Part shown: positions 60,224 through 64,000 of the stretch, piece by piece
Numbering within the stretch: the stretch's first letter is position 1
How the letters are laid out: the number at the start of each line of letters is the position of its first letter
Assembly: GCA_900315845.1 (NCBI GenBank)
Contig: OOHK01000003.1
Coordinates: 44,820-108,819, forward strand
DNA length: 64,000 nt
Direction: 5' to 3'
Source of the DNA: Candidatus Avelusimicrobium luingense
Lineage (GTDB): Bacteria > Elusimicrobiota > Elusimicrobia > Elusimicrobiales > Elusimicrobiaceae
The notes under the pieces: model-generated
Databases searched by the model: none
The model's input: only the letters and a program-made list of their open reading frames with translations
Told to the model about the DNA's origin: nothing
Position numbers and translations under genes: made by a program

Positions 60224-60742
60224 TTATTGATTAAGCGTGTAGTACATATATCCAGTTTTTTGGCCTTCGGGCGTGAACGCACCCCACCCCGCTCGTTGAA
60301 CTCCCAAGGATTTACATAATTTAACGGCCTGCTTATTTGCCAGATTGGCTACACAATACGCCGCACCGTCTTCTACTGTCATGTGATGAAAAGAAAAGGA
60401 TAGATCGGATCTCCCACATACGACTGCCGGTGTGAAACCGCTGCTATGTATAATACAACAATACATTTCGTTATTTGACCCACAAGTGTTGCCATCTACT
60501 TGTGAGGAAGTGAATCCGGCGGGCAAATCTACGGCTAAAGAATCAAAATCGGTGGCCCAGGTACCATTGGCGGTAAAATATATTTCTGAGGCTTTAACTA
60601 ATGCGTTGGCGGTACTGCGCAAGTTGGCAAACCGCGATTTGTTGACGGCTTGTGTATATTGCGGCAAGGCCACGCTCGCTAAAATACCGATAATCAAAAC
60701 CACTACTAATAATTCAATAAGCGTAAATGCTTTTGTGTTCAT
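60224..60742 (-). CDS. Type IV pilin-like protein, family B
   Basis: A 172-residue prepilin with leader MNTKA and FTLIELLVVVLIIGILASVA, then LPQYTQAVNKSRFANLRSTA and KASEIYFTANGTWATDFDSL. The C-terminal domain has family-B marks: NTCGSNNEMYCCIIH, CGRSDLSFSFHH, AVKLCKSLGV and an ending GQKTGYMYYTLN. These recur in the pilins at 60931 and 63619 but not in family A. AAGGAG is upstream. The promoter has an 11-nt A-run. Confidence 0.9.
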   Translation of the reverse strand: MNTKAFTLIELLVVVLIIGILASVALPQYTQAVNKSRFANLRSTANALVKASEIYFTANGTWATDFDSLAVDLPAGFTSSQVDGNTCGSNNEMYCCIIHSSGFTPAVVCGRSDLSFSFHHMTVEDGAAYCVANLANKQAVKLCKSLGVQRAGWGAFTPEGQKTGYMYYTLNQ

Positions 60743-60779
60743 ATAAAATTCTCCTTACTGATTTTTTGTTACTATAATT

Positions 60780-60807
60780 ATTATCGTTTTTTTTTTTGAT
60801 TTGTCAA
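60780..60807 (-). promoter_or_regulatory. Pilin promoter with palindrome and 11-nt A tract
   Basis: Minus strand: TTGACAAATCAA (60796-60807, TTGA-CAAA-TCAA) contains -35 TTGACA. Eleven A follow, then GATAAT (60780-60785) at 16 bp. Confidence 0.65.
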
Positions 60808-60894
60808 GGGCGATTTGGCAGAGTGCGCAAGTTATTACGTATTTGCGCGTTTGTATTGCCCCGAAATTCAATTAGATAGATTCTTTATTATAAA

Positions 60895-60928
60895 ATATCC
60901 CCCGGATATTCTGCCGGGGGACATTTTG
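60895..60928 (-). terminator. Terminator after the pilin gene at 60931
   Basis: TCCCCCGG and CCGGGGGA pair around ATATTCTG, with an AT-rich 3' flank on the minus strand. Confidence 0.75.
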
Positions 60929-60930
60929 TG

Positions 60931-61485
60931 TTAATGAATAGTGTAGTAATTATAACCCGTTTGATTTCCGGTAGGAGAATTGGTGGAATCGGTTTTGATA
61001 AAAGTGGAGCCCACCAAACTTTTACATAATTTATCGGCGTTGGCATTAGTGGCTTTGGCTGCGCATAAATCTTTTTCTTTCAAAGGATTCACTGCCTCAA
61101 TGGTATCTAACAAGTAAATATAAGAGAAAGAATAGTCTGCCCGACCGCAAGTTACACTGGTGGCCCAAGAAGCATCCTTTTGGCGCAGACAACAAAAGAA
61201 ATCATTATTATAAGCGCAAGAACGGTGGGGACTGTCTGTATGTACCATTGTTAACCCGGCAGGAGCATCCACACTTAATTCATCAAAATTGTCGGACCAT
61301 TCTCCGTTAGCCAAATGATAGGCTTCCATGGCTTTGATGTATGGTTGGGCCATACTTCGCAAGTTAGCAAAGCGCGATTTATTGACGGCAAGCGTATATT
61401 GCGGCATGGCCACGCTTGCCAAAATACCGATAATCAAAACCACTACCAATAATTCAATAAGTGTAAATGCTTTTGTATTGTTCAT
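60931..61485 (-). CDS. Type IV pilin-like protein, family B
   Basis: A 184-residue prepilin, leader MNNTKA, FTLIELLVVVLIIGILASVA, then MPQYTLAVNKSRFANLRSMA and MEAYHLANGEWSDNFDELSV. The C-terminal domain has SCAYNNDFFCCLRQ, CGRADYSFSYIYLLD, KLCKSLVG and GNQTGYNYYTIH. No Shine-Dalgarno or palindromic promoter is seen; it lies 32 nt after the secreted-protein gene at 61518 and is probably its operon partner. Very similar to the partial pilin at the right edge. Confidence 0.9.
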   Translation of the reverse strand: MNNTKAFTLIELLVVVLIIGILASVAMPQYTLAVNKSRFANLRSMAQPYIKAMEAYHLANGEWSDNFDELSVDAPAGLTMVHTDSPHRSCAYNNDFFCCLRQKDASWATSVTCGRADYSFSYIYLLDTIEAVNPLKEKDLCAAKATNANADKLCKSLVGSTFIKTDSTNSPTGNQTGYNYYTIH

Positions 61486-62033: not shown

Positions 62034-62084
62034 AACCTACTCTTAAACATAGTATAGTATTTTTTCTGTTTATTGTCTTAAAAT

Positions 62085-62241
62085 GCAGGGCCGGGTGATG
62101 CGCGTGTGCCGGATTTTGCAAATTAAATTACTGCAGGACTAGGCCTACCCCAGTTGCAGGATTTTTTGAGTAAAATTTAGTGCAAGGCTAGGCGACAGGC
62201 ATATGCCGGATTTTGCAAACTAAATTACTGCAGGACTAGGC
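62085..62241. repeat. Degenerate ~48-bp repeat array
   Basis: A 38-bp unit is nearly identical at 62107-62144 and 62204-62241 (one mismatch); it begins TGCCGGATTTTGCAAA and ends CTGCAGGACTAGGC. A diverged unit at 62156-62193 lies between them. The stretch just before the first unit (TGCAGGGCCGGGTGATGC) resembles the end of another. The period is about 48 bp. No ORF is associated. Confidence 0.7.
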
Positions 62242-62326
62242 ACGAACGAAGGAGTAATACTGTAGGAACTCGCGCGTTAGCGCGGAAGTATGCGACTGAG
62301 TGAGTAACAACGTCCTGCAGCAATTT
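62222..62326. repeat. Inverted repeat overlapping the last repeat unit
   Basis: AAATT-A-CTGCAGGAC (62222-62236) is complementary to GTCCTGCAG-C-AATTT (62312-62326), enclosing 75 bp with an internal CGCGC-GTTA-GCGCG hairpin (about 62271-62284). A long stem-loop in RNA or DNA is predicted. Confidence 0.6.
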
Positions 62327-62334
62327 AGGACGCA

Positions 62335-62366
62335 AAATAAACCCCCGCGTATTATTTCGGGGGTTT
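62335..62366. terminator. Strong intrinsic terminator of the minus-strand RNA
   Basis: AAACCCCCG (62339-62347) and CGGGGGTTT (62358-62366) pair around a 10-nt loop. On the minus strand it is followed by ATTTT. Confidence 0.85.
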
Positions 62367-62504
62367 AGCTCATTGTCGTTTTCATTTGACGTATGTTCCT
62401 CTTTCCGCCGGGGGCTACAATTCCGGGTCTTCACGCAATCGGGGGATACGCCGTACCCGCCACAACTGCAACCAAGGAAAAATGTGCATTCCCTGCGTAC
62501 TTGT
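62338..62504 (-). ncRNA. Free-standing small RNA gene, family unknown
   Basis: This ~167-nt region has a consensus promoter (TTGAAA-16-TATACT, minus strand) predicting a start near 62504 and ends in a strong hairpin. It is GC-richer than its flanks and has internal pairing, e.g. GGGTAC-GGC-GTATCCC with one bulge and a CCGG-to-CCGG stem. A 69-codon frame crosses it but has no ribosome site and runs on into the repeat array, so it is unlikely to be a protein. The size fits 6S RNA, but the 6S fold could not be shown; signal-recognition and tmRNA signatures are absent. Confidence 0.62.
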
Positions 62505-62510
62505 AATGAT

Positions 62511-62538
62511 AGTATAAACGATTTGTAAAAAATTTCAA
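62511..62538 (-). promoter_or_regulatory. Promoter of the small RNA
   Basis: TTGAAA (62533-62538) and TATACT (62511-62516) on the minus strand, 16 bp apart. It lies 40 bp downstream of the squalene-synthase-like gene stop. Confidence 0.75.
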
Positions 62539-63618: not shown

Positions 63619-64000
63619 TTACATATTCATGGAATAATAATTGTAAGCAGATTTTCCGCCGTCCGGCGTCCAAAGCCCTTGAGCAGAAGCAAGTTTGGTC
63701 CCGCCGAAACTTTTGCACAATTTTTCAGCGTTGGGGTCAGTCGTTTTGGAAAAACATAAATCTTTGTTCAGGATAGTTGCTCCCGCATTATCAAAAACGT
63801 ACACGTAAGCAAAAGAGTAATCTTTCCGTCCGCAAGTGAACGAATTGGCCCATGACCCTTGCGTATATTTTATACAACAAAAAATATCATTATTGTACGC
63901 GCACGAACTAACCGTTCCCGCGTTGGTTTGTACGGTTAATCCAGCCGGCGCTTCCACGCTCAACTCGTCAAAGTTGTTAGGCCAATCTCCGTTAGCCAAG
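63619..64000 (-). CDS. Type IV pilin-like protein, family B (5' part beyond the window)
   Basis: The C-terminal ~127 residues of a family-B pilin; the frame is open to the window edge, so the prepilin leader lies outside. Seen are MANGDWPNNFDELSVEAPAG, SCAYNNDIFCCIKY, CGRKDYSFAYVYVFD, EKLCKSFGG and the ending GGKSAYNYYSMNM. It closely follows the pattern of the pilin at 60931, suggesting a recent duplication. Confidence 0.88.
   Translation of the reverse strand, partial: LANGDWPNNFDELSVEAPAGLTVQTNAGTVSSCAYNNDIFCCIKYTQGSWANSFTCGRKDYSFAYVYVFDNAGATILNKDLCFSKTTDPNAEKLCKSFGGTKLASAQGLWTPDGGKSAYNYYSMNM

Follow-up and report, generated by a model that had tools for sequence, protein, structure and literature searches.

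Do a promoter-like and a terminator-like signal that frame a short, apparently non-coding interval mark a genuine RNA gene and, if so, what might its transcript do? This question is raised by a locus on the minus strand of a 64,000-nt stretch of contig OOHK01000003.1 of Candidatus Avelusimicrobium luingense (hereafter, the window), where a first-pass annotation made from the letters alone had placed an orphan small RNA gene. Comparison with related genomes leads us to regard the RNA gene and its fold as almost certainly real, and as representing a new, uncatalogued RNA family.

A conserved RNA gene in three genera of Elusimicrobiaceae

Both signals named in the first-pass annotation, a TTGAAA-16-TATACT promoter and a strong hairpin terminator, are present on the minus strand. 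In one sequence, such promoter and terminator patterns are not beyond chance: the scan returned 6 promoter-like sites versus 3.6 expected, and the whole RNA, folded from the window sequence alone, has a z-score of -1.5. The locus is read as a gene because dozens of genomes retain the TTGA/TATANT boxes, the rod-like fold described below and the terminator between flanks that have diverged; in the alignment, conservation begins at the -35 box and ends at the terminator. The RNA is also GC-richer (51%) than its flanks (38% and 44%), as had been noted, and the window as a whole stands at 45%.

A DNA search of 61 genomes recovered the RNA from 32, among them that of the window; all 32 belong to one genus. 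A pattern scan of a genome collection matched 53 contigs, mostly belonging to metagenome-assembled genomes (MAGs) of Elusimicrobiaceae or Elusimicrobiales, Candidatus Avelusimicrobium among them, and several of these contigs carry rumen or gut sample names. The first of two covariance models, built from 48 sequences, was applied to 341 Elusimicrobiota genomes. It gave strong matches in 60 of the 66 genomes of the window's genus; the other six are MAGs that are 72-91% complete. Two further genera of Elusimicrobiaceae (the second and third genus) gave full-length matches that were weaker. One second-genus genome with a match consists of a single 1,643,562-bp contig, and one member of this genus is presumably Elusimicrobium minutum.

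The second covariance model includes the second and third genera, with seven third-genus members held out. These seven score 72-80 bits, and the model finds the RNA in 3/3 genomes of the second genus and 14/18 of the third, with no convincing match in about 145 other genomes of the class. The core pattern is absent from viral contigs, and a BLAST search of plasmids gave one weak partial match only. The family is apparently restricted to Elusimicrobiaceae, across three genera of gut bacteria. The suggestion that the locus might be a lineage-specific RNA gene, equipped with a promoter and a terminator, has thereby gained strong comparative support.

The promoter of most second- and third-genus members reads TTGACA or TTGACT with TATACT or TATATT; the predicted promoter is near consensus in all three genera and of the housekeeping type. 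Neighbouring genes change between genera, the downstream gene in the main genus is often convergent, and a neighbourhood comparison across genera found no conserved same-strand gene downstream. Given this arrangement, the RNA would be neither a leader nor a product of a 3′ untranslated region. By this comparison, the locus is a predicted autonomous gene, independent of its neighbours, with the attributes of a stand-alone structured small RNA (sRNA).

Several further matches and copies were recorded. Extra model matches of about 20-35 bits, together with isolated matches in unrelated taxa, appear to reflect chance or terminators held in common. A 39-bit secondary match of model R2 (L167, G102:C1:516654-516796), located in the same second-genus genome that we take to be E. 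minutum-like, also looks like shared terminator features and not like a paralogue with a conserved core. One genome (G005) contains two different full-length copies of the RNA, L173 (C129:12545-12691) and L019 (C25:275-418), which represent either a paralogue or a mixed-strain assembly. In the second genus, the promoter is shifted in the upstream direction and the added 5′ part of the RNA contains hairpins; L171 and L143 have this extra 5′ part and lie near tRNA genes. The second-genus RNA is predicted to be longer (about 245 nt in L171) because of this addition.

Architecture of the rod and terminator

The RNAalifold consensus folds as one 92-nt rod plus the terminator. Over 48 distinct sequences, 97.9% of the cells of the whole structure are paired, changes on both sides occur in 20/42 pairs, and slid versions of the structure drop to 35-53% pairing. 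The doubly changed cells number 191 versus 55 in shuffles, and none of 500 shuffles was as high. The mid-rod helix (21-25/90-95) is 97.9% paired in the window's genus, with all 5 pairs changed on both sides. The third genus taken alone yields the same rod, with a larger internal loop and 20/43 pairs doubly changed.

The nine core pairs (GGNUGCNGU / AUNGC-[G/A]NNAA-GNCC) are 99.5% formed over the three genera, and their variable positions covary. The rod is capped by an apical loop of 3 nt (NGY) or 4 nt (GAGG-like), which does not belong to the GNRA type. The core helix, invariant in sequence next to its 5-nt bulge, may serve as a recognition site.

The terminator consists of a 9-bp C5G/CG5 hairpin and, after it, a U-rich tail; the sequence of its stem is invariant among 48 homologues. 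The pattern scan overlooked this terminator on account of the 10-nt loop.

A ribosome-site-like tail with a minimal reading frame

Between the rod and the terminator lie a Shine-Dalgarno (SD)-like purine stretch and a very short open reading frame (mini-ORF), whose stop codon reaches into the start of the terminator stem. All homologues checked across the three genera combine an SD-like stretch with an AUG that opens a frame of 5-8 codons, closed by a stop at the terminator base, as exemplified by AAAGGA-ACAGAGA-AUG ACC AAA GAG UCA AUA ACU AAC UAA in the third genus and GGAG-UCGUA-AUG AGU AAA CUA ACG AAC UAA in the E. minutum-like genome of the second. L136 and four held-out members stop one UAA earlier in the same run, and UAG replaces the UAA stop in two species, both among the seven held-out members and the one further main-genus copy mentioned below. 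Small insertions and deletions are tolerated in the mini-ORF because stops occur in more than one frame (TAACTAACTAA).

A comparable frame ending there occurs at about 0.5% of positions in real window sequence, and shuffles of the region reproduce the SD and mini-ORF in 0.06-5.8%, depending on the sequence and the cut-off. The definition of the mini-ORF was set after the first sequences had been seen, so the held-out third-genus members are the fairest test: all seven carry a mini-ORF so defined, as does one further copy from the main genus. The encoded peptides differ between genera (MKTTMS, MSKLTN, MTKESITN and MTKVYN) and several codons vary freely. We read this pattern, which is known from sequence comparison, as putative selection for engaging ribosomes and terminating early rather than for a peptide. 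The first-pass annotation had reported neither a ribosome site nor a plausible protein; the latter statement stands, whereas the former gives way to a conserved SD-like site with a very short frame.

Table 1. Coordinates of the RNA gene and its elements in the window.
Feature	Position	Strand	Basis or remark
-35 box TTGAAA	62533..62538	minus	promoter scan; TTGA kept across genus
-10 box TATACT, spacer 16 nt	62511..62516	minus	TATANT kept in homologues
Predicted RNA, about 167-169 nt, start near A62504	62336..62504	minus	conserved block between promoter and terminator
Rod, 92 nt, single long hairpin with internal loops	62406..62497	minus	covariation
Most conserved helix, 5′ strand GGUUGCAGUUG	62463..62473	minus	pairs with 62425-62441 around 5-nt bulge
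Most conserved helix, 3′ strand with 5-nt GUGAA bulge, near-invariant	62425..62441	minus	covariation counts
Apical hairpin GGGUAC-GGC-GUAUCC, freely covarying	62444..62458	minus	alignment
Purine stretch AAAGAGGAAC, outside rod, SD-like	62395..62404	minus	homologue comparison
Mini-ORF AUG AAA ACG ACA AUG AGC UAA (MKTTMS)	62365..62385	minus	SD-like site, start and frame-to-stop kept
Intrinsic terminator AAACCCCCG-N10-CGGGGGUUU-AUU	62336..62366	minus	z = -2.6, 0/200 shuffles

Comparison with known RNAs and RNA-binding proteins

Four tRNAs are the sole Rfam matches in the window at gathering score, and the RNA locus gave weak, chance-level matches only, at relaxed thresholds; its relatives likewise yielded no Rfam family. 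The first-pass annotation had remarked that the size would fit 6S RNA and had proposed a covariance search, which does not bear out this identity. The 6S family (RF00013) is not listed at the locus at E<=10, nor for homologues of the two other genera at E<=1, and none was found above cut-off in 61 genomes. Furthermore, the rod of the window's genus is base-paired, with small internal loops only, and does not contain a large single-stranded central bubble of the 6S type. We rejected 6S identity on these grounds. The RNA resembles 6S RNA in being a stand-alone gene of similar length with a rod-like hairpin starting near the 5′ end; it differs in lacking both a covariance-model match and a conserved open central bubble, and in its extra tail with an SD-like site, AUG and stop.

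The signal recognition particle (SRP) RNA is likewise structured and of a similar size class, whereas the locus matches neither RF00169 nor RF01854 and lacks the domain IV motif. The small SRP RNA was not found in 16 genomes of the phylum, G000 included, nor the large one in the window's own genome. As the SRP54 M domain (PF02978; Ffh) was also not found in 6 of these genomes, G000 and members of other families included (controls, 14/14), we rejected the idea that the locus is the missing SRP RNA. The M-domain result agrees with the published scarcity or loss of SRP in Elusimicrobia (PMC7987157). In joining a very short reading frame to a structured RNA, the locus is also reminiscent of tmRNA (RF00023), but it has no match to this family or to a tRNA-like domain, and a separate, ordinary tmRNA scoring 136 bits is encoded on another contig; tmRNA identity was rejected as well.

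Bacterial dual-function sRNAs such as SgrS/SgrT, Spot 42/SpfP and RNAIII are regulatory RNAs that also bear an SD and a small ORF, and their peptide is a product. Their ORFs are many codons longer, in contrast to the 5-8 codons found here, where the peptide is not conserved, the stop lies at the terminator base and Hfq is missing from the genomes tested. Indeed, Hfq (PF17209) was not found in 6 genomes of the three genera and CsrA (PF02599) was not found in 7 genomes, results that speak against the usual modes of sRNA action. Leader-peptide attenuators share a short ORF immediately 5′ of an intrinsic terminator but differ from this RNA, which has no conserved regulated downstream gene; we rejected a leader or attenuator role for this reason.

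Proposed function and competing explanations

The best-supported reading, to which we assign a probability of about 0.45, is that of a trans-acting structured RNA whose rod would bind a partner and whose 3′ tail would engage ribosomes. The RNA would be made abundantly and act in trans, with the invariant rod helix and bulge binding a protein or RNA partner. The tail may let ribosomes initiate and then stop within a few codons, and translation itself, rather than the peptide, would be under selection. A ribosome halted at the UAA could cover the base of the 3′ hairpin, and the stability of the 3′ end or the access of the partner might thereby report translation capacity. Whether this amounts to a new kind of RNA is more doubtful, and we put forward only tentatively that a structured domain may be joined to a minimal ribosome-engagement module (defined as SD, AUG, 5-8 arbitrary codons, stop and terminator) that is selected for the act of translation, the fate or binding of the RNA reporting ribosome availability. 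Two features of most genomes of the window's genus weigh against ribosome engagement: (i) the SD and the AUG are far apart (10-12 nt) and (ii) the AUG sits in a small hairpin. Translation may be weak or absent as a result and, because AUGAC pairs with GUCAU, part of the conservation of the AUG may stem from the hairpin.

In a trans-acting base-pairing sRNA, the rod would stabilise the molecule, the unpaired purine-rich tail (AAAGAGGAACA...) would pair with mRNAs and the start and stop codons would be incidental. The stand-alone gene, the strong promoter and the rho-independent terminator suit this explanation, as does the high conservation within the genus of the tail outside the rod. We nonetheless consider it unlikely: the tail sequence differs between genera, which have only the SD, AUG and stop in common, a purine-rich seed has the wrong sign for masking ribosome sites, and the failure to find Hfq in the six genomes tested lowers it further. 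The conserved SD-like site, AUG and stop could also belong to an mRNA for a very short bioactive peptide preceded by a structured 5′ leader, and MTxxSITN-like peptides are indeed encoded in most third-genus members; given the differences between genera and the freely variable codons, such an mRNA appears improbable.

A functional counterpart of 6S RNA, in which a DNA-mimicking rod sequesters RNA polymerase, would account for the size, the closing stem near the 5′ end and the long rod, and would fill a slot that is vacant insofar as 6S was not found above cut-off in the 61 genomes. However, neither the locus nor its homologues match Rfam 6S, the mid-rod of the window's genus is paired with covariation and hence offers no conserved open bubble, and the 3′ tail and terminator, about 70 nt together, are not part of the rod, observations that make this counterpart distinctly improbable. 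We see very little likelihood that the RNA controls a downstream gene in cis, as a leader or attenuator of the riboswitch or leader-peptide kind, since, despite the leader-peptide-like ORF beside the terminator, no same-strand downstream gene is conserved, the next gene is often on the opposite strand and the neighbours change between genera. A chance match of promoter and terminator with no gene between them, for which the weak single-sequence statistics could be invoked, deserves virtually no credence, as comparison has already refuted it through covariation and conservation across three genera.

We found no description of 6S, small RNA, noncoding RNA or RNA motifs for Elusimicrobiota or Elusimicrobia in the literature searched. 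With its near-consensus promoter and its presence in three genera, and because the genomes tested yielded no SRP RNA, Hfq or CsrA and no 6S above cut-off, this RNA gene is a good entry point to the RNA biology of the phylum. E. minutum is a cultured species, and expression and knock-down tests may be feasible if, as is probable, it carries the RNA. The covariance models R1 and R2 could become a new Rfam family.

Genomic surroundings of the locus

The upstream neighbour of the RNA, on the same strand, is a squalene/phytoene synthase gene (PF00494). Just downstream of the terminator, a 61-nt direct repeat (62084-62144 and 62181-62241; 97 nt apart, 84% identical) is accompanied by a 27-nt inverted copy of its end (62312-62338; 85% complementary), which ends at the terminator tail. 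These repeats are possibly a small mobile or palindromic element. Several pilin-like genes with an N-methylation motif also lie near the RNA on the minus strand (60224-61485 and 63619-63999), the motif having been checked with PF07963 for the gene at 60931-61485, and such pilin-like genes adjoin the RNA repeatedly, in several genomes.
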